Below, one piece after another: positions 14,241 to 63,176 of a stretch of DNA of 64,000 nt. The DNA is from Antennarius striatus (Eukaryota > Chordata > Actinopteri > Lophiiformes > Antennariidae). The position numbers were made by a program, and so were the translations under genes. How positions within the stretch are numbered: the first letter of the stretch is position 1; the number at the start of each line of letters is the position of its first letter. Under the pieces are notes generated by a model that was given only the letters and a program-made list of their open reading frames with translations, did not search any database and was not told the origin of the DNA. Where the stretch lies: the NCBI RefSeq assembly GCF_040054535.1, contig NC_090782.1:24230501-24294500 (forward strand). Direction: 5' to 3'.

Positions 14241-20790
<6,550 letters not shown>

Positions 20791-35090: not shown

Positions 35091-38000
35091 CTAGAAACAT
35101 TCAAGTGTGATGTTGTTTTCCAGCAGGGTCCTCATGTCCAGCATCGCGTCCTCCACGGCTCGCAGCAGATTTGCTGCTTTATTGTTTGTGCAGGTCTTGG
35201 AACCGTGTAAGTAGAACACTGTGAAGTTGAATTGTTCGTTGAAGGTACTGTAACACATGCTGTATGCATTGAAGTCTTCAGATGCCATAAATGATGTACA
35301 TCCGACCTTGGATGTCACCTTGTGGAGAAAGGCAGTGGTGAAAAAGAAGGGGTTAGTTAACCATCATCATCACTGTCCCCAAGAAGCCGGCAGTAGACTG
35401 TCTCAATGACTACCACCCTGTTGCACTTTACAAACTGGTCTTAACACAACTGCCTGTCTACCTACAATCCTAGACCCTCATCGGTTTGCCACAAGGCAAA
35501 CCCTTCCACCAAGGATGCCATCACTATAGCATTAGACTGCGCTGAGCCATCTCGAGCACCTGGGGATCTCCGTGATGATGCTCCTCCTGGACTGCAGCTC
35601 AGCTTTTAATATCATCCCGGAGCTCCTAGTAGAGAAACTTTCTCATCTGGGTCTCACCACCTACTTAATCACTACCTTGTAGAACAGCAACTATTGTATA
35701 TTTTAGTATATTTTAGTTGTCATTACCTGAGATGTCACAAGCTTGTAGTCAAACACTTTGAAGAAGGAACTGTCTGTGAAGATTCCTGGGATGGAGATGT
35801 TCTCCTCAGCAGCCAAAGCCTTCAGCATGAAGAGATGGGTTGTAATGGCCTGTCCACGACTTGCCTTTAAGATGGAGACAGTTCAGGATGTAACGTGAGC
35901 CACTAGAGAAGCCACCATTGACTCACAACAGAAGACTCAATAGATGTGTTCAAAGACATGATTTCCTTATAGTAATGTTGATGTTATACACCATTGTTGA
36001 TAGTGTAGGTAGTTTTGTTGTGCTACACTCTGTACCATTGCATACAGACATTCAAGTCAGAACCAGTTTCTAAAGCTCCTGTGGTCCGAGCCCAACTTGA
36101 GGTGGGACAACTGATTGTATCAAGACTTACATAATCGACTGAACAAGGACTAAATGACAGAATGGAGTGTTGCCTGGAATGATACTCACTTTCTTTGCAT
36201 TCCAGACATGTTCTTCCAAAGCTTTCTTCATTAAATGAACCCTCTCGGAATTCTGTGTAAATAGAGGGAAAAAACCCATCACTTGCAATTGGACCATGCT
36301 GGGGTATAGAATGGTTTATAGCACAAAATTGGACTATTCAATGAGTCTTGATGTAAATCCTGTTGAAAATCTGTGTAGGAAGCTCAAACATGCTATCTGG
36401 AGAAGATGTCCTTCAAACCCAACCGGAGTAGTTTGCTTAAATACCTGTTGACAGGTGCAGAATTCTCACTGACAGTTATAGAAATAATTTGATTGCCTCA
36501 AAAGGTTGTTCAACAAAATATTAAGTTAATGGTAGCATTCTAACAGATGGAGCATTGTCTGTACAACTGCACAGCATCACGTGTCCTCTGCGAGATAGTT
36601 CCATGTCTTCAGCAGTGCTTTGCACCTCCCCTGCTCTACTCGCAGTCTGTTGAGGTTCTTCCAGGTCGTCCATGGGAGGTTGTGTCCTCTGGCGAGGAAT
36701 TCACTACGTGTTATTCCTCTCTCCGTCCATTCTTGGTTCGGGTGTTGGGTTGGTGCCATTCCACCCTTGACATGTTGGTCCTGGCAGATTCCTTGGTAGA
36801 CTGAGGGGGGACTGTGTGCAGGAAACTGGCTCTGGATTTTAGTCTGGATGGGGGTGCTGTATGTCCGTACAGGGGGTGCCTCACATCAGATTCCTGTGCT
36901 CTCCACTCATCTTGTGCAACGATGGAGCGTCTCATGTGAGGGGGAGAGCAATGCCGGCCAGTGCGTAGAGGCACGGGATTGGCGCGGCGTTGTCTTTAGG
37001 CAGCCCATGAGGATGCGGCAGGTGTCGCCAATTTGGTGTGGTGGGTGGGGCTCCGGCTTGAGCATGCATACGCAGCCATGGAGAAACACAGGGCTAGGGC
37101 TGTGGTACGGATGCTTGTTGGATCAGCATCCCACTTTAAGTTCACCAGTTTACGCAACATATTTTGTAGGAGTTGACGCTGGCTTTGGTGTTGTGAAGGT
37201 GGGTTTTGAAGGAAAGGGTCCTGTCTAGTGTGACTTGGAGGTACACAGGAAGGGGATGATTTAGAAGTTTGTACCCGTCCCATGAGAAGTTGTTCTCTTT
37301 CTGCGTCTCAGTTTTTCAGGTAGAAGCTGCAAAGCTGTTTTTTTGATGTGTTGTTTTTTAGGTGGTTGTTACTGTAGTCGGTGGACATGTCTTCGAGGGC
37401 ACTTTTTGGCGTTTGGGTATAGCGACAGTCTTGGCTTTTCTCCATACAGGTGGGATGGTTTTCTTTGCCAAGCATGAGTTCAGCATTTCTGAGAGCCAGG
37501 TTTTTGCTTTTGGTTTTTGCTTTGGTTTGCTTTGGCTACGGTGATAGGCCAGTGTTGTGTATGGGAGATGGAGTTCAGGACCTCTTTCCCTGCTCTGGAT
37601 GCTACTTCGCTGCTCACACAGACATAGTCTGGGTTATATCCTTGTTTCCATCCGGCACTGTGGAAGGATTTCGGCAGTTTGGCGTCATGGATCAGGGTCA
37701 GATGTTTTGACTCAAGCCCGGTTTCTACCTCATCGCCATATTGTTTTCTTTATAGCCCCACAATGTGCTATGGATATTGAAGTCCCCAATGCTGATGTGA
37801 AATTTCCTCTTGCATCTATCTGGCAGTTCTGTGTGGGTGAATAGGCTTTGAGAGGGTTTGTACACTGATGTGACAGAGACATTTGGGAGGGCAACTGTGA
37901 TGGTTTCCATTTGCCCTTCTGTGTTGTGGGTGCAGACCTCTTGGATTGTGAGGTTTGGTCTGCTGAATACGGCTGATCCGTACTGTCTGTGACGGATCTC

Positions 38001-41000
38001 CGCCACCAGCTTCATTCCAGGCAGGGCGGATCAGTGCTGATCAGGGCCGATGTGGGTTTCCTGGATGCACACTATGTCAAAGCATTTCACAACTGTCATT
38101 AGTATGTCTGCCTTGTATCTGGAGAAGCCCTCAATGTTGATTGAGGCAATTGCTGGCGCAGGCCCCGTGGGGTGTATTTGTCTCTGCGGCATCTTTGGCG
38201 TCGTCATCCAATAGATTGATAAAGTTGGTATATAGATATTGGTCTACTGGTGGTGGTAATCAGATAGTGATATCAAATTATGCCAGTCAGCGTTTCCCAG
38301 GCTGCACCACCGGGAGGTTTCTGTATCAGCAGCCCAGATCTACAGTAATTCCTTGCTTGTTCCCGCTTAAAGATGCCCAGCTTCACTAAATCGTGTATTT
38401 TTAGTAGGTAGTCACATGATACCGTGCTTTAAACTGTCTATAAGAGTGGGAAAAAGTAATACAGATATAAGGTGGTTTAATATCGGTATGGGGAGGCTTC
38501 ATAAACTTTTAAATTACTGTAAATAATAAAATAAATAGCTGCTATATCGCAGAATTTTTGTTTTTCACGGGTGGTCCTGAATGGCATTAACCACGGGAAA
38601 TTAGGGATTAGGACATCATCAGCTCTTTACTCCCTGAACCAAAGGTGGTTCCAGTGCTGTGCATTGTATAAAGAATAAACCTGTCCTGACAACCAGACTT
38701 AGGACAGCCTGAGCAGACCTGAGAAAATTTTGTTGGTACTGTAAAGCACGATTATCATAGAATTTGTTGAGTGATTGGCTCGTGACATCATTACATTAGC
38801 CTATCATCAGACCTGTTTCTGAGGGTCATCAAAAGCCTTGACGAAGGCAACTGAGGTCCTCGTGTTTGAATTGATTGCTGTTAAACGGCCCAGTTTGAAC
38901 CTACGGAGGGAGACAGGTTCCTCTGTTGGGCAGCACTGATGGTGAATCCTGACAAAACAGAGGAGAGAGAAGTTTTCTACGCTTTAGTTGCAAAAAACGC
39001 TGTTGTCCTGCAAACTCGACATTCCTTTTTCACTGTTGCCTGATTATAAGAACAACCTGGAAGCTTTTGATGATGTGTTCATCTCCTTAAACGGATATAA
39101 GACCTCTTGTTGTTGTTGGACTCAAACACAACACCTCACCTGAGATCTTGCTGCAGTTGGTTCATAAACTGGAGAGAAAAATGCCCAATCACAAACAGTC
39201 TATGTACCTGTGATAACTGAGAAACTCACCTGTAGTAGGCCAGCTGTATTGCCATCTGTACAAAAGCATCGGGACTCAACTTTAGGGCCTTTAGAACATC
39301 TTTCCCAAAGTGCTTGAACACACTAACACTCAGATCCAGGTTCTGGGTCAGTCTGTGGCAGAAACGGGAGAATTTTTGAGACAGGGAATATTCTTTCCAT
39401 CCATCCATCCATCCATCCATCCATCCATCCATGGGCATCTGCTTTTCACGGATGCTTGGTGACAGTCCAACATGCACTTGGAACAGGTGTGACTTGTGAA
39501 CCAAGATCTGGTTTCAGTTATACACGGACTGCCCAGCCCTCAGCGAAGGGCCGCAAACCCCATAGTCCCGGAGCACTCCCCACAAGATACCATGAGAGAC
39601 GTGGTCGAATACCTTTTCAAGATCCATAAAGCATGTATGGATGGTTGGGCAAACTCCCACAAACACTCGAGCACTGGATAGAGAGTGTAAAGCTGGTCCA
39701 GTGTTCTGTGACCAGGACGAAAACCGCATTGTTCCTCCAGAATCCATGAATCGACTATGGGTCTGATTCTTCTCTCCAGTACAATGGAATAGACTTTACC
39801 TGGGAGGCTCAGGAGTGTGAGCCCCTATATTTTATTTATGAAATTAGAACTGCTCACATGTCCACGCGCTGCTTGGCCTCATCGATGTCCTTCTGGATCT
39901 CAGGTGTGATGTTGAAGTGAAGTTTTTGGGGCATGGGTAAAGGTTCCGAGGGAGACTGTATTACCTCTGGATTTTTCCTTTAGAGACAAGAGAAAAGGAC
40001 CTTGAGGAAAAACGAATGCCACCATTAACTGCATATCTTATCAAACACATAGAAACACTACCCCCACCTATCTGACAACTGACAGCAGTGTGATTATAGA
40101 TTCTGCAACTTTATAGAGAATACTACAAAATGTTATTAGAAGCTCAGAAGGAAATAACCTCACCACTCAGTCAGTTATTGAAATCTGGTGGTACAGTAAT
40201 GCAAAGTCCAATCCAAAATCTGTGTGTTGACTCTTCCACACACTCAATATGTGGGATATACAAAATGAGTCATTTCCTTTACCCCATAAAAAGTATTTTC
40301 TTAATGGGACAATGGTACAGATAAGAAATACTTCAGTCAATCATAACAATAAATGGACACAACCTGAAGTATACTTCATCTTCTGCATGTAATCTGAAGT
40401 AGATCATGAAAAACAGGCTAATTCAACTAAAAGGTTCTAGGTTTACTCAACACCATTTGAGAGCAGTTATTCCAAATTTATGAAGCATGAAGTCATCAAA
40501 TGTCTTCAGAAATCTCCATTAGGAGCTGCTAGGGTCATCATTACATCCCAACCCAAAGGACTATCTCCTCAAGCATAACGGCAAACACTGTGGGACTAGT
40601 GCTGATGGAACCACAACATGGAGAAGACTTGTAACACTACCCACCCTGGACTCATTGATATGACTATAGAGATGCCAACTGCATACATAAGGGTGGGGCT
40701 ACGTAAAATCCTGAATGTCAGACTTTTACTCTGCATCGTCACAATGGTCCAATCAAACCGCTGGAACAAATTGGTCAAGTCTTGGTACTCTGGGCTCTCC
40801 AGGACCACATTTGTGAAGCACAAAAAGCAATTCAGTCTTCTTACATTATTTTTACCAATTGATTGATGAAGGCCATCTTACTGGTTCCATCAATCACCGC
40901 GTGGGATTGGTTCAGACCACATGTCCCATCTTCTCCACAGATTACCTGAAACAATAAATTTAAAATGAGCATCACAACCCAGAGTCTCCCTTTAAAACCA

Positions 41001-44000
41001 GCAAAGACTTTGATTGACAGTCAACAGTGGCTGAAAACTCATTCCATTGATATGAATGAAAACAGATCCAGAGAGGAATCACCTGCATGGACTTATCAAA
41101 CCAGCGGTTCCCACTGTTCCACTGGCTGCCTCCTCCATGCAACATCTGGTGGTATTTGTCATTAGACACTGGGGGCATGGCTCCATCCAGACAAACTGTG
41201 AAGATGCTGCTTTCTATAGTTGACACTGATTGTCTGTTGGTCTCATCTAGACAGGCACTCAAAACAATCATCAACAAAACAGTGATTAATTGATCAGATT
41301 GTGACATTGGGACCTTCAAACTTGCCTTTGTTTTAATAGAGATGAATAGCTTTTCCTCACTTTTGATTTTACCATTTGTAGTCATATAGATTGAGCCTGA
41401 TTTTGGTTTTAAACCCTGACAACCACGCTATAGGCTCGGCTACCAGATGTTTTACAGAAACTGCTGCACTTAATGGAACTTTTTTCTACCTTAAATTGAT
41501 TGTTAGTCTGGTCTGAAGTAGTTCTTGGTTCCATTTGTTTGTGATGTTACCTTTTCATGCCCTCAAGATTCACATCAATGTCTTTTATTCTGGCTGCATT
41601 AGAACAGAGTTGAGCTCACCCTTGATCAGGTTAGAGTATGTCTTACTCCAGGTGTCACGATTCTGGGTGGTAAGGATACCGACGGGCTCTACGTCGCTCT
41701 GTTTTGATGAGTTGCGGATCCTGTCCAGCTGAACACAGAGCTGATCCACGGTCAGCCGTGTCCCGTCACTGTCGTACACATCCAACTTAAAGAACTGAAG
41801 AGGAGAGGGAGGAAACGCGTGACTGCAAGATGCAAAATTTGGGGAGCAAGTTAAAGAAAAAGATATGCAGTGATCACCACGTCTCATTAATTTTTTCTCT
41901 TACGCAAAAGAGATATCAGCTTGCTTAGTGGCCACAGTACTTTCACCAATCACCAATCACTTTGTCATTGTCATGTTCAATAATGGCGAAAAATGTTACA
42001 TGCAAAGTGCAAAGCTGCAAGAAGCCAATGCCAGGTATCGTGAACTGAGATTTTCCAGACATCACACATCCTGACATCGGAAGACATCGATGTTGAAAAC
42101 TTGAGCGGTACGACACAGCCTCGCATTCTCAACAAAGAAAAAGAACAGGACATTATATCTGATGTATTAATTCTAATTCTAGCAGCTGTTCAATCACAGG
42201 TGAGGATACGGAAGAACGTCTTCAGTGAACCTCGTTTGGATTACAATTTGTCTCATCTTTGAAGATACACCTCTCAACCAAGAACCAAAAAGGGTTTTGT
42301 TCAGAGTAAAACCCTAACATTATCGTCTCACCTGAAAGTTGTGGACTACAGTGATGTGTTTTGGGGGGGTGGTACTCTTGCTGTAGAACACCAAAGAGTC
42401 TGACTTCAGTCCAGGAACCTGGCAGGCGGACATCAACTGCTCACACTGCTTCATACACAGCTGCTTCCCACCCATGTACTCCACTGGTAGTGTCCCACTG
42501 TAAAACACACATTCACTCCAAAAGGACTCAGTCATTATATCCAGTTCATCCTGACCCAAAGAGGTCCCTGAAGCTACTGGTCCATCTAGAAATGGAACTG
42601 AAAGTTTTTTCGTGGACTTCCCTAACTAAAACATGAAAACTAAAGGATTCAAACACATTCAGCGCAACAAAACCCAAACCTTGGTTTCACCATTTAGGTG
42701 TGAAAGCATCACTTATGTATGAAGAAACATACAAAAAATATTGTTTGGATGCAAACCTTCCTCACTGACGCCACGTCTGATACTGTGGTCAGCTGCATTG
42801 GTGCTCCACAGGGGACTGTCTTGTCCCCTATCCTCTTCACTCTATACACGGCGGACTGCTACAACTCAGAACTGTGTCACATTCAGAAATACGCAGATGA
42901 TGCAGCAATTGTGGGATGTATCGGACAATTAGGAGCAGGAGTATAGATGCTTGTTGAGGGACTTTGTCGACTAGTGTCACAGCAACAACCTGCAGCTCAA
43001 CACCTCCAAAACTAAAGCATTGGTCATTGATTTCAGGAGGGACAGACCCAGACCTAGACCAGTTCTGATAGGAAAGGAAGAGATGGAGGTTGTACAGACC
43101 TATAAATATCTTGGGCTGTGGCTGGACAACAAGTTGGACTGGACAAGCGACACGAGGCGGCTGTACAAGGAAGCTGATAGCAGGATGTACTTTCTGAGGA
43201 GGCTGTTTGACAGTCCAAACTATCACACAGGGAATAAAAAGACGCTCTGCCTGGAAATATGAAGAACTGGCAAGACTAAATGGAACACACAGTCTGAATA
43301 CACGAGGGAGGGAAGTCCTCAAGAAACCGGTGAAACAGCTCAACTGCTGGGGAGGAGGCAAAGACTGGAAGTGCGACGACAAACAACACAGGAAACAAAC
43401 ATTAAATCAATTTGTGTGGAGGTAGAAGGAGCTCAGGACTCACCTGTCAATCAGTGCTTTTACATCCAGGTTTCCAGATATGACTTTGGCAGCACACCTA
43501 AACAAAGAAAACGTTCTCATTAGTGAAATGTTGACAGAGTTTGTTGTTGTGATGCCATGCATTGTGTTTTGTCTGAAGGTCAGATGCAGTTTCTGCAATG
43601 TTACAACAAGGTACCATTGGAAACAAGACCATCCAGGACGTCATCTAAAGTCAAACCATAGAGGATTCCAAGGTCTGCTTGGGCTTTTCAGCCTCTTGGA
43701 ACTTCCAGTGATGTTCAAGCTTCATTTTCTTTACAAATAAAGAGGTTTTCCTTGATGGAATCCATCAGCCCTTCTGCAGACTGCAGGTTTCCAGTGGACC
43801 AGGAAGCATTAACTGAGCCCTGGATATGCTTCATGCAGGAAGTCAGTTCATCAGCTTTGGAAACAAACACTTTAATGTCTGACTTGGTCTTGTGAAGAGA
43901 ATTATTTTACCTCAAAGTGAATGTGTATGGTCCACAACCAAGAGAATGAACAACAACTTCTCAGAACTAGATGTTTTCTTGACATTCATATAAAATATCA

Positions 44001-45462
44001 CACTTGAATTTTCTCAATGCTGGCATTAAAAATCTTGAAAAAGTCACACAATAGAGAATTTTGAAGAAGGGTCTTGTTGTCGCTACCTCTGTCTGGGTGA
44101 TCATCAGCGTGTGTCTGCCAATGTGATTACCTGGTCTGTCCTAGATCCGTATCCCTGTCGGTCACCGGGGAAAGAATTAGCGCAGCGTTGGAGAAAATCA
44201 CCAGAGGTTTTCGTAGGTCCATATAAAAAGCTTTCACATACCACTCTGTTAACTAAAGAAACAGATAGATATTGTTTGTTTGACAGGATTGCACAAAAAG
44301 TACTGAATGGGTTTCCATGACAATAACAAGAATGGTTGAGCAGTCCCCTTTAATTATTTTCTAGGGCAGATGAATGCAGCTGGTTGTGGTTCTGGAGCTC
44401 ACCCAGTTGTCGGTGCAGTCTGCTCTCTGCTCCAGGCTCCTCTGTAGTCTCTCCCCAACCCCTCCTGCTCTCTGGAACTCCTCCACCAGGTCTTTGGTTC
44501 TCTTCAGCTCATCTGGTTCCACCACTGGTTCCAGGGCTCTGAGGTAGAGCTCACAGGTCTGCCGCAGGGGGGGAACAGGCAGACGGGGCAGTTCATTCTG
44601 CTGGATCAGGTTTCTGACAGCAACCAGGGTCACTGGTACTGGTTTCACCAACTGGTAGGGCTTCACTGTCCCCACCTCACAATGATAAATAATAAGCAGT
44701 ATTTTCATTAGCATTACTAGCATTAATCTCCAGTAACATGTAGAATTAACTGAAGGATACGTGTTTACAGATATTTGAGAACTCTCAGATAAGCCTGATA
44801 AGCAATGATGCTCTGAAATAACAGCAAGTGTTTCAGCATGACTTGAGGGCTTCACTCTTATTTATTCAGTTACAATCATCAGAAATGAAGGGTTGAATTA
44901 GAAAATGTTTTTTTAAAATTTTACTTATGCTTATTTGGGAACTCACAAGAATGTTGTCAGCACGCTCGGAAATAGCACAGCACATTTGGGTTATACTTTA
45001 TATCAGTAGTATCTCTAGGATTACTCATACAGTAGCATGAAGCCTGGCTCGTGTGCTGTCCTGCTACATAACACAAGTGGTTTTGGACCACTGTCAACTG
45101 AATGTCCATCAAGATTCTCTGGTAAGAAACAGAATTTATGGTTCACACAATTTTCATGACTTGTACAGAGCCGGGCAGGATCTTAATTTTACGAAGTGCC
45201 ATGTTATTTTTAAACCAGAAGTACTAGAACAAAATCTTTGAAAGGTTCCACCTTTGTCTCATCAGTCCAAAGAATATGTTATCAAAACTTGGGGATCATT
45301 ATATTGTTTTTTTTGTGAAAGTGACACATTTTCAAAAAATATATACGCACACATGTAGATTCACAGATGGACAGGTGTGTTCATTTGCTAAGCAAATATT
45401 GTGAAAGTAAAATTAACTGAGGGGTCTTTACTTACCAGACCTCTGTTGCAAAGTCTCAACAT
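35091..45462 (-). CDS. Carnitine O-acetyltransferase-like gene, unit A
   Basis: Thirteen coding exons on the minus strand: 45436-45462, 44403-44675, 43444-43497, 42332-42497, 41620-41794, 41083-41246, 40845-40945, 39858-39977, 39230-39352, 38813-38948, 36190-36252, 35727-35864 and 35091-35318. The product aligns with CRAT along its length: MLRLCNRGL presequence, [95 protein letters not shown], active-site [50 protein letters not shown] and AMLDMRTLL. The family moves acetyl groups between CoA and carnitine in mitochondria and peroxisomes. The exon for the WW...SSPG segment (about 39 residues) was not found between 43497 and 44403. Flanking phases (0, then 2 required) do not join without it, so the gene may be defective or the exon hidden. 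Introns carry LINE and Tc1 pieces. Confidence 0.78.
35370..35695 (+). mobile_element. Rex1-like LINE fragment in last intron of unit A
   Basis: The plus strand reads, with breaks, [18 protein letters not shown] and, around 35590-35640, [15 protein letters not shown]-like reverse transcriptase words. The same fragment is at 53200-53525 in unit C, so it predates the A/C duplication. Confidence 0.6.
36290..36533 (+). mobile_element. Tc1/mariner transposase 3' remnant (unit A)
   Basis: Words such as [20 protein letters not shown] match the C-terminal NPIENLWR.LK region of Tc1 transposases. In unit C the same element continues for about 200 bp more (54120-54560), so unit A has lost its end. Confidence 0.6.
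36540..38390 (-). mobile_element. Non-LTR LINE with endonuclease and RT fragments (unit A)
   Basis: The minus strand has an endonuclease-like piece at 37725-38015 ([16 protein letters not shown], typical of the APE fold) and scattered reverse transcriptase words upstream in the element. The matching part of unit C (55170-56520) preserves [16 protein letters not shown]. Probably a Jockey/I-type element; it is frame-broken. It lies in the intron between the 38813 and 36190 exons. Confidence 0.6.
39396..39433 (+). repeat. (CATC)n microsatellite, unit A
   Basis: About nine CATC units; the counterpart in unit C is near 58578-58616 and is interrupted by one CTTC unit. Confidence 0.85.
39490..39840 (-). 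mobile_element. LINE reverse transcriptase fragment (unit A)
   Basis: The minus strand encodes [20 protein letters not shown] and [20 protein letters not shown], a reverse transcriptase palm segment seen in many fish LINEs (pattern DLEKAFDRVP...LREYGV). The copy in unit C (58673-59280) extends further, with [12 protein letters not shown]. Confidence 0.7.
42719..43265 (+). mobile_element. Rex1-like LINE fragment (unit A)
   Basis: The plus strand encodes [68 protein letters not shown] and [10 protein letters not shown]. The counterpart at 62370-62943 in unit C keeps 27 more bases inside the reverse transcriptase frame. It lies in the intron between the 43444 and 42332 exons. Confidence 0.75.
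43735..43885 (-). other. Unidentified open stretch in CRAT-like intron
   Basis: About 50 codons read without interruption: [52 protein letters not shown]. Part is conserved in unit C (63423-63533). I know no match. It lies where the missing WW exon should be but does not resemble it. Confidence 0.3.
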
Positions 45463-45743
45463 TTTGCTTTCAGATCAACTCCAACAGGCAGTATTTGATT
45501 GATATTTATCCTTTGATTGTTTGAGGGCTAGAGAGGATTAACTACCTGGAAAAGTTCTTGCTGTATAAGAGGAGTTGATAACTCCTTCCTGCTTTGTTGA
45601 AAAAATATTACGAAAGACAAGTGACAAAAGCAGGAAAACAAGAGAACAGTTTGTCTTCTTTACACACATAGAAGGGACACCCAACTACGATGGATTACTC
45701 CCCTTAAACTAACAAGGAATCAACATTACATCAGCTCATCGTG

Positions 45744-46855: not shown

Positions 46856-46857
46856 TT

Positions 46858-47600: not shown

Positions 47601-48272
47601 CCACTAATTTTCATTATTGTAATTATTATTATTGACTTGTTCACCCTTTTATTGGAAATGATCAGTATTTTTCCTATGTTGAATGCACTGATTGCAAGTT
47701 GCAATTTTTCAAAATAACCCTCATCAGTGGGGGAAAGGAGAGGACGAAAGTGTGTTCGTAGGATGAGAGAGAAGAGGAGCGCCAAGAGTAGAGATGTTAA
47801 ATGTTTGAACTGTGACACTGTTGAATAATGTAGGTAGTTCCTGGTGTGCTACACATACACATTAACTGTCAATGTCCATACACGGTAAGTTTTTTAAATG
47901 TCGGTTCGAGGGCATCAGAGCGTCAGAACGGATCTGGAACTCTGTCAGGAGAATTAAAAATTCCATGACAGACATGTGGTCATGCGTCATTTCCTCTGAT
48001 ATCATCATCAAGTTTCTCTGATGTGTGAGATTCAATTCAGAACCAGTTTCTAAGGCTCCTGTAGTCCGAGCCCAACATGAGGTGGGACAACTGATTTTAT
48101 CAAGACTTCTTACAGTGATAATCGACTTGACAAGGACTAAATGGCAGAATGGAGTATTGCCTGGAATGATACGCACCATCTTTGAATTCCAGACATGTTC
48201 TTCCATAGCTTTCTTCATTAAATCAACCTTCTCTGAGTTCTGTGAAAATAGAGAGAGTAAAAAAACTTGTTT

Positions 48273-48420
48273 CTTGCAATTGGTCGATGAGAGAGGACAT
48301 GAAGATAGTTGGTGTGAGAGAAGAGGATGCAGAAAAGAGGATTCGATGGAGGCAATTGATTCGCTGTGGCGACCCCTGAAGGGAAAAGCCCAACGGAAAA
48401 GAAGAAGACTTGCAATTGGT
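48273..48420 (+). mobile_element. LINE-tail insertion with 12-bp target duplication
   Basis: A 124-bp insert (48285-48408: ggacatgaagatagttggtg ... cgctgtggcgacccctgaag) is flanked by perfect repeats cttgcaattggt (48273-48284 and 48409-48420). Units A and C have an empty site at the same place. It is typical of a severely 5'-truncated retroposon. Confidence 0.8.
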
Positions 48421-48429
48421 TGATGTTTT

Positions 48430-49320: not shown

Positions 49321-50579
49321 ATCATCAGCTCTTTACTCCCTGAACCAAAGGTGGTTCCAGTGCTGTGCATTGTATAAAGAATAAACCTGTCCTGACAACC
49401 AGGCTTAGGACAACCCGAGATAAACACAAGAAAAATCTTGATAGCACTGTAAATCATTATTATCATAAGATTTGTTGAGTGAATGGCTTGGACTATCATC
49501 AGAACTGTTTCTGAGGGTCATCAAAAGCCTTGACGAAGGCAACTGAGGTCCTTGTGTTTGAATTGATTGATGTTAAACGGCCCAGTTTGAACCTACGGAG
49601 GGAGACAGGTTCCTGTATTGAGCAGCACTGATGGTGAATCCTGACAAAATAGAGGAGGGAGAAGTTTTCAACAAACTGTCCTCCAACACATCCACTGAAA
49701 CAAATACGGTTGTTCTACAAACTCAGCATTCTTTTTCACTGTGGCCTGATTCTAGGAACAACATAGAAGCTTTTTACAACATGTTCATCTCCTTAAACGG
49801 ACATAAGACCCCTTGCTGATGTCGTACTCAAACATTAAACCTCAAAAACCTAGAGAGAAAAATCCCAAATCAGCAAGTAATCTATATATCCATGACGACT
49901 GACAGACTCACCTGTAGTAGGCAAGCTGAAACGGCATCTGCATGAAAGCATCGGGGCTCACCTTGAGAACCTTTAGAACATTTTTCCAAGAGCGGTTGAA
50001 CACACTATCACTCACATCCAGGTTCTGGACCAGTCTGTGGTGGGACGGGGAGAATTTTTGAGGGAGGGTGAAAACTCATTTCATTGATATGAATGAAAAC
50101 AGATCCAGAGAGGAATCACCTGCATGGACTTATCAAACCAGCGGTTCCCACTGTTCCACTGGCTGCCTCCTCCATGCAACCTCTGGTGGTATTTGTCATT
50201 AGACACTGGGGGCATGGCTCCATCCAGACAAACTGTGAAGATGCTGCTTTCTATAGTTGACACTGATTGTCTGTTGGTCTCATCTAGACAGGCACTCAAA
50301 ACAATCATCAACAAAACAGTGATTAATCGATCAATCAGATTGTGACATTGGGACCTTCTTGTGAATGGAAATAAAGCCTCACTCAGTTCAGACCAGCTAA
50401 AGTAAGTTACATTTTTGATATTTCATTAGTAGATGTTTGATGTTGGTTTAAATTCGGCCTTATTGTTTTAATAACTTCAACTTTAAATAATACCAATTGT
50501 CTATAAAATTGTTATAAGTACACCTCTACAGAACATTGTATCCCTATTAACATGAGGACCAGCTTTCCACCATTCATCG

Positions 50580-52190: not shown

Positions 52191-52921
52191 AGAGACAGAT
52201 AGAGTGGCAGACAGGCACTAGTGATTTGAGATCACTGTATTGGCAAAACTAAATCCTTGCATACAGCTTCCTCCGTTATTCTTTTGGGATGCATAAACGT
52301 CATGTTGTGATCAATAAATCAGGCACAATCAACTCCTGTTTCTTGTGCCTGTAGTTAGTCTGAATGGCGCCCCATTGGGCTTCGAACTGTTTGGGGCAAA
52401 TGTGCCGAAAACTGTTTCATTATTCAGCGTCCCGTTCATTGAGAAATCTCTTTTTATGATTGTGGGTCAAAATTAAGTGTTATTCATCATTGGAAATCCC
52501 CTGTTGTGAAAAAGCTAAATGATGGAATCATTTGTAAAGATGTCATGGAAGAATATTGACATTTAATGGGCATACATTGTCAAAATAAATACTTTTTTAA
52601 TATTATCAGGAATGACATAACTTTGGGATAATTAATAAAACAATATTGCCAGATTGAGGAAGTTGTCATTTTTGAAGTTTCATCTCCTCCAAGACACTGG
52701 TCAACATTTTACAAAGAAAGACAAAGAAGTTAAATTTAGGTTAAGAAACCCACTCTCAGTAACGCAAGCAGAATATAGTGTGATGTCATGGTGATGCACC
52801 TGAACAAGTTTAAATGTGTGACAAGACATAAGAATCAAACATGTCCACACTTTTATAACAAGGATATCAATCAAAGGTTGAAGATGAAATGTCTCACGTA
52901 TGTGTCATCACATCCATTCGC

Positions 52922-55900
52922 CTAGAAACATTCAAGTGTGATGTTGTTTTCCAGCAGGGTCCTCATGTCCAGCATCGCGTCCTCCACGGCTCGCAGCAGA
53001 TTTGCTGCTTTATTGTTTGTGCAGGTCTTGGAACCGTGTAAGTAGAACACTGTGAAGTCGAATTGTTCGTTGAAGGTACTGTAACACATGCTGTATGCAT
53101 TGAAGTCTTCAGATGCCATAAATGATGTACATCCAACCTTGGATGTCACCTTGTGGTGAAAGGCAGTGGTGAAAAAGAAGGGGTTAGTTAACCATCATCA
53201 TCACTGTCCCCAAGAAGCCGGCAGTAGACAGTTTCAATGACTACCACCCTGTTGCACTTTACAAACTGGTCTTAACACAACTGCCTGTCTACCTACAATC
53301 CTAGACCCTCATCGGTTTGCCACAAGGCAAACCCTTCCACCAAGGATGCCATCACTATAGCATTAGACTGCGCTGAGCCATCGCGAGCACCTGGGGATCT
53401 CCGTGATGATGCTCCTCCTGGACTGCAGCTCAGCTTTTAATATCATCCCGGAGCTCCTAGTTGAGAAACTTTCTCATCTGGGTCTCACCACCTACTTAAT
53501 CACTACCTTGTAGAACAGCGACTATTGTATATTTTAGTATATTTTGGTTGTCATTACCTGAGATGTCACAAGCTTGTAGTCAAACACTTTGAAGAAGGAA
53601 CTGTCTGTGAAGATTCCTGGGATGGAGATGTTCTCCTCAGCAGCCAAAGCCTTCAGCATGAAGAGATGGGTTGTAATGGCCTGTCCACGACTTGCCTTTA
53701 AGATGGAGACAGTTCAGGATGTAACGTGAGCCACTAGAGAAGCCACCATTGATTCACAACAGAAGACTCAATAGATGTGTTCAAAGACATGATTTCCTTA
53801 TAGTAATGTTGATGTTATACACCATTGTTGATAGTGTAGGTAGTTTTGTTGTGCTACACTCTGTACCACTGCATACAGACATTCAAGTCAGAACCAGTTT
53901 CTAAAGCTCCTGTGGTCCGAGCCCAACTTGAGGTGGGACAACTGATTGTATCAAGACTTACATAATCGACTGAACAAGGACTAAATGACAGAATGGAGTG
54001 TTGCCTGGAATGATACTCACTTTCTTTGCATTCCAGACATGTTCTTCCAAAGCTTTATTCATTAAATGAGCCCTGTCGGAATTCTGTGTAAATAGAGGGA
54101 AAAAACTCATCACTTGCAATTGGACCATGCTGGGGTATAGAATGGTTTATAGCACAAAATTGGACTATTCAATGAGTCTTGATGTAAATCCTGTTGAAAA
54201 TTTGTGTAGGAAGCTCAAACATGCCATCTGGAGAGGATGTCCTTCAAACCCAACCGGAGCAGTTTGCTCAAATACCTGTTGACAGGTGCAGCATTCTCAC
54301 TGACAGGTATAGAAATAATTTGATTGCCTCAAAAGGTTGTTCAACAAAATATTAAGTTAATGGTGCCATCATTTTTGTCCAGGCATGTTTTGTTTTTTAA
54401 ATGAATCTGTTGATACAAAATTCAAAAGCAATGTCTGAGTTTTATTGGTTAATTTTCAGTAAATTTGTGTCAATTGTTACTTTTGTATATTACTTATTTC
54501 CGTGACCATTGTGAGGTTTTCTTTCATTGAAAGAGGGGTACCAACAATTTTGTTTACCTACAACCCTAGACTGCAAGTAATGGATGGTGTGTATAGATCT
54601 ACAGTCTTCTTTTACTTTGAGTCCCTTGCAATCTTAGATATCTTAGCAATCTTAGTTGCTGAATGACTTAGGCACTGTTTGGTCTGTCCTCAGAGTGGTG
54701 GATCCTCAGCAATCGGTGACCTCTGTGTGCTTCATCGGCTGGTGGTGACTCGCTCTACTGGATGGATCGGCATGCCTTTGTTATACATTTATTGTTACTG
54801 TTATTGTTACTGTTATTATTATTGTGTTGTTAATCTGTACATGCGGTATCTATTGCTTCGTCTGTCCACTCCTGGAAGAGGGGTCCCTCCTCTGCAGTCT
54901 TCCTGAGGTTTCTCCCATCCATTTTTTCCCCTGTTAAAAGGGTTTCTGGGGGGAGTTGTTCCTTATCCGATGCGAGGGTCGCACTGCTTGCAGTGCACAA
55001 AGGTCAGAGGGATATCGTCCATGTGCAGATTGTAAAGCCCTTTGAGACATTGCTTGTGAATCTGGGCTATATAAAAATAAATAAACTTGAAACTTGATAT
55101 CATTCTGTCAGTGTCTGGCACACGATACAACTGATGGGGTCGGCTCAGCCAGGTCCTGGGGGGCGTTGTAGCATTCTAACAGATGGAGCATTGTCTGTAC
55201 AACTGCACAGCATCACGTGTCCTCTGTGAGATAGTTCCATGTCTTCAGCAGTGCTTTGCACCTCCCCTGCTCTACTCGCAGTCTGTTGAGGGTCTTCCAG
55301 GTCGTCCATGGGAGGTTGTGTCCTCTGGCGAGGAATTCACTACGTGTTATTCCTCTCTCCGTCCATTCTTGGTTCGGGTGTTGGGTTGGTGCCATTCCAC
55401 CCTTGACATGTTGGTTCTGGCCGATTCCTTGGTAGACTGAAGAGGGGGGACTGTGTGCAGGAAACTGGCTCTGGATTTTAGTCTGGATGGGGGTGCTGTA
55501 TGTCCGTACAGGGGGTGCCTCATATCAGATTCCTGTGCTCTCCACTCATCTTGTGCAACGATGGAGCGTCTCATGTGAGGGGGAGAGCAATGCCGGCCAG
55601 TGTGTAGAGGCACTGGATTGGCGTGGCGTTGTCTTTAGGCAGCCCATGATGATGCGGCAGGTGTCGCCAATTTGGTGTGGTGGGTGGGGCTCCGGCTTGA
55701 GCATGCATACGCAGCCATGGAGAAACACAGGGCTAGGGCTGTGGTACGGATGCTTGTTGGATCAGCATCCCACTTTAAGTTCACCAGTTTACGCAACATA
55801 TTTTGTAGGAGTTGACATTGGCTTTGGTGTTGTGAAGGTGGGTTTTGAAGGAAAGGTTCCTGTCTAGTGTGACTTGGAGGTACACAGGAAGGGGATGATT

Positions 55901-58900
55901 TAGAAGTTTGTACCCGTCCCATGAGAAGTTGTTCTCTTTCTGTGTCTCAGTTTTTCAGGTAGAAGCTGCAAAGCTGTTTTTTTGATGTGTTGGTTTTTAG
56001 GTGGTTGTTACTGTAGTCGGTGGACATGTCTTGCACGGCACTTTTTGGCGTTTGGGTATAGCAACAGTCTTGGCTTTTCTCCATACAGGTGGGATGGTTT
56101 TCTTTGCCAAGCATGAGTTCAGCATTTCTAGGAGCCAGGTTTTTGCTTTTGGTCCTAGGCGCTGTAACATTTCCGCCAGTACTTGAACAATTCCTGCTGC
56201 TTTTTCAGGTTTCAAGGAACGGTTGTTGCTTGGAGAATGGATCGAATTGCTACGGTGATAGGCCAGTGTTGTGTATGGGGGATGGAGTTCAGGACCTCTT
56301 TCCCTGCTCTGGATGCTACTTCGCTGCTCACACAGACAAAGTCTGGGTTATATCCTTGTTTGGTATATAGATATTGGTCTACTGGTGGTGGTAATCAGAT
56401 AGTGATATCAAATTATGCCAGTCACCGTTTCCCAGGCTGCACCATCGGGAGGTTTCTGTATCAGCAGCCCAGATCTACAGTAATTCCTTGCTTGTTCCCG
56501 CTTCAAGATGCCCAGCTTCACCAAATCGTGTATTTTTAGTAGGTAGTCACGTGATACTGTGCTTTAAACAGTCTATAAGAGTGGGAAAAAGTAATACAGA
56601 TATAAGGTGGTTTAATATCGGTATGGGGAGGCTTCATAAACTTTTAAATTACCTTAAATAATAAATAGTTGCTATATCGCGGAATTTTTGTTTTTCACGG
56701 GTGGTCCTGGATCGCATTAACATTAGAATTAGGGATTAGGACATCATCAGCTCTTTACTCCCTGAACCAAATGTGACCGGTTGAAAATGTCCCTCCTGGG
56801 CCACCAGAGTTGGGTAGCAGTCAGCTCCTCCTACCAATCAGCCAGAAATTGGTATAAGGTGTCACTATGCTTGCTTTCTGGCAAGGAGTTGACTGCTACA
56901 CATGCTGCCGTAAGTTGTCTTCTGTTTTTTAATGTTTGTGTGCTTTGTATGTGTTTTTAGATGTATTTTTGTCATATGTTAGGTTTTGTTCAGGAACTTC
57001 CCTCATGCCCACACAGGTGGATTCCTGGAAAGGATTGTTCCACAGGAGGTAAAGGGACAATTCCTTTAGTGTACAAACTGGTTTATTTGGCAGAGGTATT
57101 TAACCTGTCTTCTTTTTATTTTAGACAGACTGCCACTGCTGTTTTGTATTTAGTTTGGTTTCATTGTTGTTTTAATTGTTTTATTTTATTCAATTTTATT
57201 GGTTAGGCTTTTGTGCCCTTTTATACTCCTTGATTTTATTCTAGGCTTGTATTTTCCCCCAAGACAACAAACAGTACTGTTGCAGCAGTCCTGCTATCTT
57301 TTAACATGTTTTTAATCGTTCTTTCTATTGCATGAGTGTTGCGGGGCCGGTGCCAGGGAGCTGCTTTGGACGGTGGAGCCATCGGTGGTTGGGGTCCCTC
57401 ACTTCAGCACCACACTCCCCTTAATTTGTGTGTGTAGTGGTTTTTACACAGCCTTCACATTTTACACTTTACCCCTTGTCTTTTTGTTTGTTTGCTGTGT
57501 GAGTGTGAGTGTCGGGCACGGAGCTGGGTGAGCGCTCCGGCCTCGATTGGCTCCCTAATTAGTCATCCTGGCCGTCCTGCAGTGCTCATGTAGACCTGGT
57601 AGGTCTGATAGGTCTCTTGGCATTCTTGTTCTTTTTACTCTCTTTTAATAAAGTTTTTAGTCTTGGGGGAAGAACTTTGTCTCTGCCCATTATTGGACCA
57701 TCGCTTGTCCAATTTTTAAAAAAATATCTGTGGTCTGTTCACCAACTTAAACAAATCTTACAATTTGGTTATTTACTGTTCCTGAACTTCCTGAGTTCTC
57801 AGTACCAAGCAGCGGCTACACAAAGGCCGTTCCAGTGCTGTGCATTGCATAAAGAATAAACCTGTCCTGACAACCAGACGTAGGACAGCCTGAGCAGACC
57901 TGAAGAAAATCTTGTTGGTACTGTAAAGCATGATTACCATACAATTTGTTGAGTGATTGGCTCGTGACATCATTACATTAGCCTATCATCAGACCTGTTT
58001 CTGAGGGTCATCAAAAGCCTTGACGAAGGCAACTGAGGTCCTTGTGTTTGAATTGATTGCTGTTAAACGGCCCAGTTTGAACCTACGGAGGGAGACGGCT
58101 TCCTCTGTTGGGCAGCACTGATGGTGAATCCTGACAAAACAGAGGAAAGAGAAGTTTTCTACGCTTTAGTTGCAAAAAACGCTGTTGTCATGCAAACTCG
58201 ACATTCCTTTTTTCACTGTTGCCTGATTCTAAGAACAACCTGGAAGCTTTTGATGATGTGTTCATCTCCTTAAACGGATATAAGACCTCTTGTTGTTGTT
58301 GGACTCAAACACAACACCTCACCTGAGATCTTCCTGCAGTTGGTTCATAAACTGGAGAGAAAAATGCTCAATCACAAACAGTCTATGTACCTGTGATAAC
58401 TGAGAAACTCACCTGTAGTAGGCCAGCTGTATTGCCATCTGTACAAAAGCATCGGGACTCAACTTTAGGACCTTTAGAACATCTTTCCCAAAGTGCTTGA
58501 ACACACTAACACTCAGATCCAGGTTCTGGGTCAGTCTGTGGCGGAAACGGGAGAATTTTTGAGAGAGGGAATATTCCTTCCATCCATCCATCCATCCTTC
58601 CATCCATCCATCCATGGGCATCTGCTTTTCACGGATGCTTGGTCACAGTCCAACATGCACTTGGAACAGGTGTGACTTGTGAACCAAGATCTGGTTTCAG
58701 TTATACACGGACTGCCCAGCCCTCAGCGAAGTGCCGCAAACCCCATAGTCCCGGAGCACTCCCCACAAGATACCATGAGAGACGTGGTCGAATACCTTTT
58801 CAAGATCCATAAAGCATGTATGGATGGTTGGGCAAACTCCCACAAACACTCGAGCACTGGATAGAGAGTGTAAAGCTGGTCCAGTGTTCTGTGACCAGGA

Positions 58901-61900
58901 CGAAAACCGCATTGTTCCTCCAGAATCCATGGATCGACTATGGGTCTGATTCTTCTCTCCAGTACAATTGAATAGACTTTACCTGGGAGGCTCAGGAGTG
59001 TGAGCCCCTATATTTGAATGCACCCTCCAGTCCTCCTTTTTGAAAAAAGGGACCTCCACCCTGGTCTGCCAAAGCATGGGTACTGTACCCAGAGACGTGT
59101 CAACCAAGATAATCCCTGCACATACAGAGACTTGAGGTATTCAGGGAATATTTCTAATGATGCTAATTCCATACTGTTTCATGTCTGCGGGCTGTAGAGG
59201 TGGCAACAGGACAAAACATGAAAATCGCTTCAGTCTCCTTTAGTTTTTGCAGCTTTAAGATTGTCTGGTGTTAAATGAAGTTTATTTATGAAATTAGAAC
59301 TGCTCACATGTCCACGCGCTGCTTGGCCTCATCGATGTCCTTCTGGATCTCAGGTGTGATGTTGAAGTGAAGTTTTTGGGGCATGGGTAAAGGTTCCGAG
59401 GGAGACTGTATTACCTCTGGATTTTTCCTTTAGAGACAAGAGAAAAGGACCTTGAGGAAATCGAATGCCACCATTAACTGCATATCTTATCAAACACATA
59501 GAAACACTACCCCCACCTATCTGACAACTGACAGCAGTGTGATTATAGATTCTGCAACTTTATAGAGAATAATACAAAATGTTATTAGAAGCTTAGAAGG
59601 AAATAACCTCACCACTCAGTCAGTTATTGAAATCTGGTGGTACAGTAATGCACAGTCCAATCCAAAATCTGTGTGTTGACTCTTCCACACACTCAATATG
59701 TGGGATATACAAAATGTGTCATTTCCTTTACCCCATAAAAAGTATTTTCTTAATGGGACAATGGTACAGATAAGAAATACTTCAGTCAATCATAACAAAA
59801 AATGGACACAGCATGAAGTATACCTCATCTTCTGCATGTAATCTGAAGTAGATCATGAAAAACAGGCTAATTCAACTAAAAGGTTCTTGGTTTACTCAAC
59901 ACCATTTGATTGCAGTTATTCCAAATTTAAACTTGCATGAAGTCATTAAATGTCTTCAGAAATCTCCATTAGGAGCTGCTAGGGTCATCATTACATCCCA
60001 ACCCAAAGGACTATCTCCTCAAGCATAACGGCAAACACTCTGGGACTAGTGCTGATGGAACCACAACATGGAGACGACTTGTAACACTACCCACCCTGGA
60101 CTGATTGATATGACTATAGAGATGCCAACTGCATACATAAGGGTGGGGCTACGTAAAATCCTGAATGTCAGACTTTTACTCTGCATCGTCACAATAGTCC
60201 AATCAAACCGCTGGAACAAATTGGTCAAGTCTTGGTACTCTGGGCTCTCCAGGACCACATTTGTGAAGCACAAAAAGCAATTCAGTCTTCTTACATTATT
60301 TTTACCAATTGATTGATGAAGGCCAGAAGACTGGTTCCATCAGTCACCGCGTGGGATTGGTTCAGACCACATGTCCCATCTTCTCCACAGATTACCTGAA
60401 ACAATAAATTTAAAACGAGCATCACAACCCAGCTTCTCCCTTTAAAACCAGCAAGGACTTTGATTGACAGTCAACAGTGGCTGAAAACTCATTTCATTGA
60501 TATGAATGAAAAAAGATCCAGAGAGGAATCACCTGCATGGACTTATCAAACCAGCGGTTCCCACTGTTCCACTGGCTGCCTCCTCCATGCAACATCTGGT
60601 GGTATTTGTCATTAGACACTGGGGGCATGGCTCCATCCAGACAAACTGTGAAGATGCTGCTTTCTATAGTTGACACTGATTGTCTGTTGGTCTCATCTAG
60701 ACAGGCACTCAAAACAATCATCAACAAAACAGTGATTAATTGATCAGATTGTGACATTGGGACCTTTAAACTTGCCTTTGTTTTAATAGAGATGAATAAC
60801 TTTTCCTCACTTTCGATTTTACCATTTGTAGTCATATAGATTGAGCCTGATTTTGGTTTTAAACCCTGACAACCACGCTATAGGCTCGGCTACCAGATGT
60901 TTTACAGAAACTGCTGAACTTAATGGAACTTTTTTCTACCTTAAATTGATTGTTAGTCTGGTCTGAAGTAGTTCTTGGTTCCATTTGTTTGTGATGTTAC
61001 CTTTTCATGCCCTCAAGATTCACATCAATGTCTTTTATTCTGGCTGCATTAGAACAGAGTTGAGCTCACCCTTGATCAGGTTAGAGTATGTCTTACTCCA
61101 GGTGTCACGATTCTGGGTGGTAAGGATACCGACGGGCTCTACGTCGCTCTGTTTTGATGAGTTGCGGATCCTGTCCACCTGAACACAGAGCTGATCCACG
61201 GTCAGCCGTGTCCCGTCACTGTTGTACACATCCAACTTAAAGAACTGACGAAGAGAGGGAGGAAACGCGTGACTGCAAGATGCAAAATTTGGGGAGCAAG
61301 TTAAAGAAAAAGATATGCAGTGATCACCACGTCTCATTAATTTTTTCTCTTACGCAAAAGAGATATCAGCTTGCTTAGTGGCTACAGTACTTTTACCAAT
61401 CACCAATCACTTTGTCATTGTCATGTTCAACAATGGCGAAAAACGTTACGTTTTCAAATCTTTTGGGTCGTCTGGATACCTGGATAACACAGTACACACT
61501 GGATGGCTCATTTTCTCAAAATTCTTTGTTGTACATCTTTTTTTGTTGTTTGAGAAAATACATCAAAGCTGTTGAAAAATGTTATGTTCATGTGAAGATG
61601 GTGCGTTCCCAATTAATATAAAGTACAGTTTTTGTGTTGTGCGATTACATGCAAAGTGCAAAGCTGCAAGAGGCCAGTGCCAGGTATCGTGAACTGAGAT
61701 TTTCCAGACATCACACATCCTGACATCGGAAGACATCGATGTTGAAAACTTGAGCGGTACGACACAGCCTCGCATTCTCAACAAAGAAAAAGAACAGGAC
61801 ATTATATCTGATGTATTAATTCTAATTCTAGCAGCTGTTCAATCACAGGTGAGGATACGGAAGAACGTCTTCAGTGAACCTTGTTTGGATTAAAATTTGT

Positions 61901-63176
61901 CTCATCTTTGAAGATACACCTCTCAACCAAGAACCAAAAAGGGTTTTTTTTTCAGAGTAAAACCCTAACATTATCGTCTCACCTGAAAGTTGTGGACTAC
62001 AGTGATGTGTTTTGGGGGGGTGGTACTCTTGCTGTAGAACACCAAAGAGTCTGACTTCAGTCCAGGAACCTGGCAGGCGGACATCAACTGCTCCCACTGC
62101 TTCATACACAGCTGCTTCCCACCCATGTACTCCACTGGTAGTGTCCCACTGTAAAACACACATTCACTCCAAAAGGACTCAGTCATTATATCCAGTTCAT
62201 CCTGACCCAAAGAGGTCCCTGAAGCTACTGGTCCATCTAGAAATGGAACTGAACGTTTTTTTGAGGACTTCCCTAACTAAAACATGAAAACTAAAGGATT
62301 CAAACACACTCAACGCAAGAAAACCCAAACCTTGGTTTCACCATGTAGTTGTGAAAGCATCACTTATGTATGAAGAAACATACAAAAAATATTGTTTGGA
62401 TGCAAACCTTCCTCACTGACAGACCACAGTTCGTCAGGCTAAAGGACGCCACGTCTGATACTGTGGTCAGCTGCATTGGTGCTCCACAGGGGACTGTCTT
62501 GTCCCCTATCCTCTTCAATCTATACACAACAGACTGCTACAACTCAGAACTGTGTCAGATTCAGAAATACGCAGATGATACAGCGATTGTGGGATGTATC
62601 GGACAATTAGGAGCAGGAGTATAGATGCTTGGTGAGGGACTTTGTGGACTAGTGTCACAGCAACAACCTGCAGCTCAACACCTCCAAAACTAAAGCATTG
62701 GTCATTGATTTCAGGAGGGACAGACCCAGACCTAGACCAGTTCTGATAGGAAAGGAAGAGATGGAGGTTGTACAGACCTATAAATATCTTGGGCTGTGGC
62801 TGGACAACAAGTTGGACTGGACAACCGACACGAGGCGGCTGTACAAGGAAGCTGATAGCAGGATGTACTTTCTGAGGAGGCTGTTTGACAGTCCAAACTA
62901 TCACACAGGGAATAAAAAGACGCTCTGCCTGGAAATATGAAGAACTGGCAAAGACTAAATGGAACACACAGTCTGAATACACGAGGGAGGGAAGTCCTCA
63001 AGAAACCGGTGAAACAGCTCAACAGCTGGGTAGGAGGCAAATACTGGAAGTGCGACAACAAACAACACAGGACACAAACATTAGATCAATTTGTGTGGAG
63101 GTAGAAGGAGCTCAGGACTCACCTGTCAATCAGTGCTTTTACATCCAGGTTTCCAGATATGACTTTGGCAGCACAC
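52922..63176 (-). CDS. Carnitine O-acetyltransferase-like gene, unit C (5' exons absent)
   Basis: Eleven exons parallel those of unit A: 63123-63176, 61983-62148, 61070-61244, 60533-60696, 60295-60395, 59308-59427, 58413-58535, 57995-58130, 54021-54083, 53558-53695 and 52922-53149 (stop TAG). The reading frame is open in all. It differs from A by few residues: [13 protein letters not shown] in place of [13 protein letters not shown] at the active site, [10 protein letters not shown] at the carnitine-side segment, and [12 protein letters not shown]. The two N-terminal exons and the WW exon are not found up to the window end; homology to A ends at about 63533 and a Ty3/Gypsy piece follows. Without them the unit cannot make a full enzyme, unless the exons lie beyond 64000. 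Introns carry the same LINE and Tc1 insertions as A plus a solo LTR. Confidence 0.72.
53200..53525 (+). mobile_element. Rex1-like LINE fragment (unit C)
   Basis: Counterpart of the 35370-35695 fragment, nearly identical, in the last intron of unit C. Confidence 0.6.
54120..54560 (+). mobile_element. Tc1/mariner 3' remnant (unit C)
   Basis: Continues past the point where unit A is cut (54365) with ggtgccatcatttttgtcca and accaacaattttgt, the usual 3' part of this fish Tc1 family. It therefore shows the older state of the locus. Confidence 0.65.
54660..55105 (+). mobile_element. LINE-tail type repeat (unit C only)
   Basis: Contains gaagaggggtccctcctctg, ttccttatccgatgcgaggg and gggctatataaaaataaata followed by CTTGAAACTTGA. 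This is a common fish retroposon 3' end, possibly CR1/L2-like. Unit A lacks it because of an 805-bp deletion. Confidence 0.55.
55170..56520 (-). mobile_element. Non-LTR LINE fragment (unit C)
   Basis: The minus strand encodes [32 protein letters not shown] and [14 protein letters not shown], a reverse transcriptase N-terminal region. Compared with the unit A copy it has lost 579 bp carrying the endonuclease piece. Confidence 0.65.
56772..57820 (+). mobile_element. Solo LTR in unit C
   Basis: A 1,049-bp insertion absent from the empty site in unit A. It begins TGTGACC, ends GGCTACA and is flanked by caaa (56768-56771 and 57821-57824). It holds a TATA-like ggtataagg near 56852 and an AATAAAG near 57646, consistent with a long terminal repeat. 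No internal region is present; superfamily not determined. It is younger than the A/C duplication. Confidence 0.7.
58673..59280 (-). mobile_element. LINE reverse transcriptase fragment (unit C)
   Basis: Same element as 39490-39840 in unit A but longer by about 268 bp (59012-59279). The extra part continues the LINE, so the shorter form in A is a deletion. Confidence 0.7.
62370..62943 (+). mobile_element. Rex1-like LINE fragment (unit C)
   Basis: Counterpart of 42719-43265; includes [19 protein letters not shown] before [10 protein letters not shown], the usual sequence of this reverse transcriptase region. Confidence 0.75.

Follow-up and report, generated by a model that had tools for sequence, protein, structure and literature searches.

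The genome of Antennarius striatus (NCBI RefSeq assembly GCF_040054535.1; 548 Mb in 42 contigs) carries an array of genes related to carnitine acetyltransferase (CRAT) in a 64,000-nucleotide stretch of contig NC_090782.1, C7:24230501-24294500, which we call the window. Two full genes of the array, units A and C, and two intact relatives elsewhere on the contig, units D and E, belong to the CRAT subfamily by descent and evolve under purifying selection. All four retain the catalytic histidine and the coenzyme A (CoA) side of the active site but no longer have the carnitine-binding residues. With moderate confidence, we propose from this residue pattern that they are mitochondrial acyl-CoA transferases, a CRAT-derived family still using acyl-CoA with a putative new acceptor.

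The array and its ancestry

Gene models were built by spliced alignment on the minus strand with a purpose-written aligner. The short first coding exon is named e0 and the 13 main exons e1 to e13, and residues are given in CRAT numbering (His343, Tyr452, and so on); positions without a contig name are those of the window. Unit A (35091-45462, minus strand) and unit C (52922-68086, minus strand, reaching about 4 kb beyond the window) are full-length CRAT-like genes, each with 14 coding exons, 1,890 nt including the stop, and 629 amino acids. There are no internal stops or frameshifts, and all introns are GT-AG. In self-BLAST, A (34966-43855) and C (52797-63534) are about 97% alike in the same orientation, in pieces of 94.3 to 98.2%. 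A minus-strand single frame matches the PF00755 profile at 1.2e-40, and the spliced protein of A scores 568.4 bits over profile positions 1 to 567 of 574 (cut-off, 22.3). An NCBIfam profile search gave no match above cut-off. A plus-strand reading of unit A was rejected, as a Pfam scan of the three plus frames of 34900-44004 found no carnitine acyltransferase, and one plus frame of the unit had no match among PDB sequences.

An earlier note on this DNA had described three CRAT-like units in one orientation, with the same exons in the same order, between 35091 and 63176. The single orientation of A, C, and the third unit, B, is borne out by the spliced models and self-BLAST. The shared exon order describes A and C, which have all 14 coding exons in common, and not B, which is a fragment with frameshifts. 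As limits, 35091 is the final base of the stop codon of A and 63176 is the first base of e3 of C in gene direction, while C itself continues to 68086.

A genome-wide profile search with PF00755 (76 of 109 candidates scored) found two ordinary crat genes, on C3 (68.9% identity to human CRAT) and C15 (64.5%), and two chat genes, on C11 (by PDB matches) and C21 (by identity and tree). Further loci are one cpt2, one crot-like, and four cpt1-like; the names cpt2, crot (the C9 locus), and cpt1 are our assumption, from recall and place in the tree. The search and the gene models also give four intact units. Units D (C7:24.091-24.096 Mb, minus strand) and E (C7:23.616-23.624 Mb, plus strand) lie about 0.17 and 0.64 Mb from the window array, each intact with the 13 main exons and a matching first exon, and the CRAT-related expansion spans about 0.68 Mb of the contig. 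Protein identity is 97.5% between A and C, 78.8% between A and D, and 86.4% between D and E. The units share 51 to 55% identity with CRATs (51 to 52% with human CRAT) and 35 to 37% with chat.

A maximum-likelihood tree of 16 rows joins the units in a single clade (100/100) and places CRATs and units together (98/99), apart from ChAT, CROT, CPT1, and CPT2, with no firm branching order between C15, the group of C3 and the mammals, and the units. Ten of the 13 main exons equal those of the C15 crat gene in length, the differing ones being e2 (122/119), e6 (164/179), and the last exon. The check that the earlier note had asked for, exon alignment and a tree, thus places the units inside the carnitine acyltransferase family, within the CRAT group, and supports its view that CRAT-related genes have expanded locally. 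Its carnitine acetyltransferase identity holds by descent; the carnitine-binding residues are replaced, and these are not ordinary CRATs. The note took a single crat locus as the usual situation; this genome has two ordinary crat genes besides the units.

Some models of other loci are limited in quality. Those of C9 and the cpt1-like genes are rough (crat query), with Gln at the catalytic His in the C9 model, and toward their ends those of C16:16.9 and C21:9 contain a frameshift or gaps. The PF00755 locus at C16:7796448-7798544, partly covered by an open frame of 1303 aa, is a divergent relative; its crat-query model was poor (stop and frameshift) and was left out of the alignment and tree. 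A match at C7:14.05 Mb was considered as a retrocopy of the units and ruled out, being far from them in the tree; its translation reads as what we take to be CPT2.

Active-site residues

According to PMC11820905, the carboxylate of carnitine is bound by a Tyr, an Arg, and a Thr, and its quaternary nitrogen faces a wall of a Phe and a Val; in our numbering these are Tyr452, Arg518, Thr465, Phe566, and Val569. In PMC11852590, His343 is the base, Lys419 and Lys423 serve the CoA phosphate, and an Asp430-Glu453 pair that supports the site is conserved in the carnitine acyltransferases and ChAT compared there.

None of the three carboxylate ligands is retained in any of the four units. In the order A, C, D, E, Tyr452 is Glu, Glu, Ala, Leu and Thr465 is Leu, Leu, Ile, Ile, and all four have Thr for Arg518, Met for Phe566, and Glu for Val569. 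The GPVVPDGYG block is likewise replaced in all four. His343, the CoA-side residues Lys419, Lys423, Asp430, and Glu453, and Thr553 and Ser554 are present in every unit, and the residues adjoining His343 vary between copies. Both crat genes of this genome retain Y452, T465, and R518. The C3 crat gene has Phe at Ser552, Val at Phe566, and Met at Val569 and so differs from the mammalian enzyme in the wall of the pocket.

The same pattern is seen across whole columns of the alignment. Near-invariant columns were taken from 10 of the 12 reference rows (C16:16.9 and C21:9 left out; cpt2 or crot may differ at them). These 10 other family rows share 81 near-invariant columns; all four units agree with them at 66, and the 15 exceptions include E342, T451, Y452, R469, D517, P568, G573, and G575. 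Four CRATs have 294 invariant columns in common, of which 195 are unaltered in every unit and 70 are altered in every unit. The changed share of CRAT-invariant columns is high in 338-352 (7/12), 451-469 (7/16), and 561-580 (9/14), middling in 98-122 (4/13) and 513-523 (3/9), and low in 551-556 (0/5), 413-440 on the CoA side (2/17), and 200-330 (7/77). Residues 102 and 107 of e2 are presumably near carnitine. No unit has a type 1 peroxisomal targeting signal (PTS1), and the N-terminus of the unit protein is basic.

Judged by these residues, the units would not be carnitine acyltransferases of a known kind, nor ordinary CRATs, because the carnitine-binding residues are gone. We propose that the unit protein is imported into mitochondria by way of its basic N-terminus, that it would still bind acyl-CoA, and that His343 would still serve as the base. 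The acyl group would pass to an acceptor other than carnitine, because both the carboxylate clamp (Tyr452, Thr465, and Arg518) and the nitrogen wall (Phe566 and Val569) are missing. The Glu569 shared by all units might, speculatively, suit a cationic or neutral acceptor.

The main rival, by analogy, is that the units are CoA-binding pseudoenzymes, which would bind acyl-CoA without transferring it and act as a sensor or partner. Retention of the CoA side with loss of the acceptor side is what such proteins would look like, E342 next to the catalytic His is lost, and the superfamily has a precedent in CPT1C, which is reported to bind malonyl-CoA with only residual catalysis (PMC5934389) and is proposed to act as a sensor. 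We nevertheless consider this account rather unlikely, since the invariance of His343, Thr553, and Ser554 in all four units is unexpected once catalysis is lost, and the residues adjoining His343 differ between copies.

Constraint and uneven divergence

In a three-ratio codon model, the ratio of nonsynonymous to synonymous rates (omega) is 0.121 on crat branches, 0.322 on the stem of the units, and 0.467 within the units. Setting omega to 1 is rejected for the units (twice the log-likelihood difference, 2dlnL, 38.0) and worsens the fit by a 2dlnL of 13.2 for the stem. Under neutrality, 7.4 stops would be expected between D and E and 0.9 between A and C, and none is present.

Divergence between copies is uneven along the gene. 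Nucleotide identity between A and D is 97.8% in e1 and 98.2% in e4, about 91 to 93% in e5, e6, and e8 (90.6% in e8), 86.7% in e9, 85.5% in e12, and 86.7% in e13. It falls to 79.3% in e10, 74.2% in e2, 69.8% in e11, 68.6% in e3, and 57.6% in e7, the most diverged exon. Synonymous differences cluster by exon in the A-D, A-E, and D-E comparisons (0 of 2,000 shuffles each) and not in A-C (783 of 2,000). Between D and E, a tract over e4 to e6 is 97.1% identical over 908 bp including introns and is flanked by pieces of 69 to 83%. The plain reading of this unevenness would be that gene conversion has acted on part of the exons. Those that escaped it have high synonymous divergence, so age accounts for much of their difference. 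Nonsynonymous changes between A and C also cluster by exon, mostly in e2, e7, and e11 (20 of 2,000 shuffles), and include residues 346, 351, 352, and 454.

Gene conversion may thus homogenize several exons and leave others, including the His343 exon, to diverge between copies, in which case the preferred acceptor may differ from copy to copy. Tentatively, we extend the proposal to a new branch of the superfamily, in tandem and dispersed copies, whose scaffold and CoA exons would be homogenized and whose acceptor-side exons would be driven apart, giving mitochondrial enzymes with differing acceptors. Model M2a is favored over M1a with a 2dlnL of 18.7 over all exons, 9.6 for e2, e3, e7, and e10 to e13, 7.3 for e2, e3, e7, and e11, and 0 for the remaining exons. 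Its top sites are 351 (0.99), 106 (0.87), 101 (0.73), 452 (0.54), and 341 (0.51). This signal is suggestive only.

A number of points weigh against a family of transferases with new and differing acceptors. In the site models, only site 351 exceeds 0.95, several top sites need multi-base codon changes, the exon sets were picked after the exon divergences were known, and the data are four sequences in which gene conversion violates the assumption of a single tree. That the pocket exons escaped conversion holds in part, because, besides e7 and e10, the escaped exons include e3 and e11, which contain no named pocket residue, and between A and D the divergence of e12 and e13 does not exceed that of the CoA exon e9. 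The residue contrast itself rests on few positions, because the C3 crat gene has Val566 and Met569 of its own, and the four CRATs compared agree at only three of the five carnitine-side positions. Glu342, adjoining the catalytic His, is Ser or Cys in all four units, and Glu347 is Asp. Finally, the omega of the unit clade, about four times the crat background, fits relaxed constraint, and for the A-C pair alone an omega of 0.78 leaves neutrality compatible.

These last figures would also suit relaxed, dying duplicates, that is, weakly constrained CRAT copies that are unbroken so far and heading for fragments such as B. Copy death is indeed visible in fragments B and F and in the pieces near D. 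For the intact units, this explanation is improbable. An omega of 1 is rejected for the clade, the four copies have no stop or frameshift although 7.4 stops would be expected in the D-E comparison by itself, and indels between A and C number 0 in 1,890 coding bases versus 24 in 8,143 non-coding bases. Change is also concentrated near the carnitine side, not evenly spread.

Less probable still is that the units remain carnitine acyltransferases that bind carnitine through different residues, possibly with a changed acyl length or Michaelis constant. CRAT ancestry is clear, His343 and Ser554 are retained, and the Glu569 at the place where Val helps hold the quaternary nitrogen could favor a cation, yet all three carboxylate ligands are replaced in all four units, and the Glu452 of A and C would repel a carboxylate.

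Between A and C, 25 of 1,890 coding and 181 of 8,143 aligned non-coding bases differ (2.2% of the latter), and there are several block inserts in C and one stretch of A without a counterpart in C. The low non-coding divergence, in pieces 94.2 to 98.2% alike, is what an assembly artefact would give if A plus B and C plus F were two haplotypes of one locus set in tandem, an account of the A/C pair only and a very improbable one given the block inserts in C, the stretch of A missing from C, the different exon remnants kept by B and F, the absence of any N in the window, and units D and E, whose 21 to 22% protein difference from A at 0.17 and 0.64 Mb is not explained by haplotypes. As an account of the whole family, assembly duplication is unlikely because of the 2.2% non-coding divergence, the 24 indels, the block inserts, and the diverged intact D and E.

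Exons, fragments, and repeats

All exons of A and C lie on the minus strand. In unit A, e0 (45436-45462) encodes MLRLCNRGL followed by a GTAAGT donor; it is identical in C, and its start codon and donor are at matching places in D and E. Exon e1 (44403-44675) includes part of the presequence, and e2 (44131-44252) keeps 5 of 20 CRAT-invariant columns in all four units. They are followed by e3 (43444-43497), e4 (42332-42497), e5 (41620-41794), e6 (41083-41246), e7 (40845-40945) with the catalytic His343, and e8 (39858-39977). Exon e9 (39230-39352) carries the CoA-side Lys419, Lys423, and Asp430, and e10 (38813-38948) covers the TYES...GRTDTIRS region with Y452E, T465L, and R469N and with E453 kept. 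After e11 (36190-36252), e12 (35727-35864) has TTHLF in place of DRHLL (D517T and R518T) and keeps Ser554, and e13 (35091-35318), with the replaced GPVVPDGYG block, ends in ECF, which is no PTS1, before the stop TAG.

In unit C, the exons are e13 (52922-53149), e12 (53558-53695), e11 (54021-54083), e10 (57995-58130), e9 (58413-58535), e8 (59308-59427), e7 (60295-60395), e6 (60533-60696), e5 (61070-61244), e4 (61983-62148), and e3 (63123-63176), with e2 (66582-66703), e1 (66850-67122), and e0 (68060-68086) all past the window end. An intron of C contains a 2.75-kb block, at 63534-64000 of the window and continuing to 66287, that is absent from A.

The array belongs to a birth-and-death family in which four genes are intact and three or more loci (B, F, and the pieces near D) are fragments. 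Unit B (48180-50281, minus strand) is a pseudogene fragment with 4 of the 13 main exons of A by peptide match (E value up to 1e-3), namely, e6 (50120-50281), e9 (49914-50033), e10 (49505-49639), and e11 (48180-48239); a peptide search for the other nine found none at an E value of 1e-3. Its spliced alignments require frameshifts, and in self-BLAST B (48027-50358) matches other units only partly. Fragment F, with e13, e12, e11, and part of e4, follows C at 69519-72961. The blocks common to B and F are 93.5 to 95% alike, and the duplicated segment was therefore probably A plus B, giving C plus F. At the carnitine ligands the broken copies resemble the intact units, with Gln at 452 and Leu at 465 in B and Ala at 518 in F as read by eye. 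The stretch C7:24088229-24090099, beside the intact gene D, has remnants of e13 on the plus strand, 95% identical to A, and of e8 on the minus strand. In window positions 1-34900, a peptide search found no further unit exons at an E value of 1e-3.

Retroelement remnants are found in and beside the array. A piece resembling a long interspersed nuclear element (LINE), with RVT_1 and then ALKBH8_N matches both below the Pfam cut-off, lies on the plus strand at 42734-43205 in the e3-e4 intron of A, within the stretch duplicated in C; an 88% copy is found about 3 kb from gene D. Another LINE-type piece (25992-26647, minus strand) has RVT_1 at 26396-26647 (below cut-off) and ALKBH8_N at 25992-26117 (over cut-off), the latter a domain that we take to mark the end of fish LINEs. 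A Pfam search of six frames of 20000-34902 found nothing besides RVT_1 (below cut-off) and ALKBH8_N. In the e10-e11 intron of A there is an Exo_endo_phos retroelement endonuclease match (37722-38144, minus strand), which sits in 37648-38224, a stretch of A without a collinear match in C. Self-BLAST also showed a repeat of about 450 bp next to the array, in two copies (27936-28378 and 30256-30706) that run in the same direction and are 77% alike.

Comparison with known systems

To our knowledge, the established small acceptors of the superfamily are carnitine and choline. Among the literature matches listed, in a coverage outside which most subscription journals fall, no description of a family such as the units was found. 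If our reading is true, a constrained CRAT-derived group with the donor half kept and the carnitine half lost would be a natural experiment, either in how an acceptor is switched or in how an acyl-CoA sensor arises. In fish, such genes may carry the annotation "carnitine O-acetyltransferase-like," and studies reading them as carnitine metabolism could then be misled. Entries of this name exist in the literature for salmon and catfish and may be of another kind.

CRAT (human 1nm8 and mouse 1ndb) has the sequence family, His343, the CoA-side residues, and crat-like exon lengths in common with the units, which differ from it in Tyr452, Thr465, Arg518, Phe566, Val569, and the GPVVPDGYG block and in having no PTS1. 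ChAT belongs to the same superfamily, uses another acceptor, and likewise has neither Thr465 nor Arg518, which are Val and Asn in the two chat genes of this genome; unlike the units, which group with CRAT, it retains Tyr452 and a GPV..NGYG block. CPT1C is a carnitine acyltransferase relative reported to bind a CoA ester with little catalysis (PMC5934389); it differs in being a mammalian endoplasmic reticulum protein of the CPT1 subfamily and is no close relative of CRAT. The published tilapia CAT motif reads GGRTE and GIDRHLLGL and retains Thr and Arg (PMC11050330), so that protein is not of the unit kind. Zebrafish crata ends in AKL and cratb has no PTS1 (PMC8919083); here, the C15 gene ends in SKL and the C3 gene has no PTS1. 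Both of these crat genes fall outside the group formed by the units.

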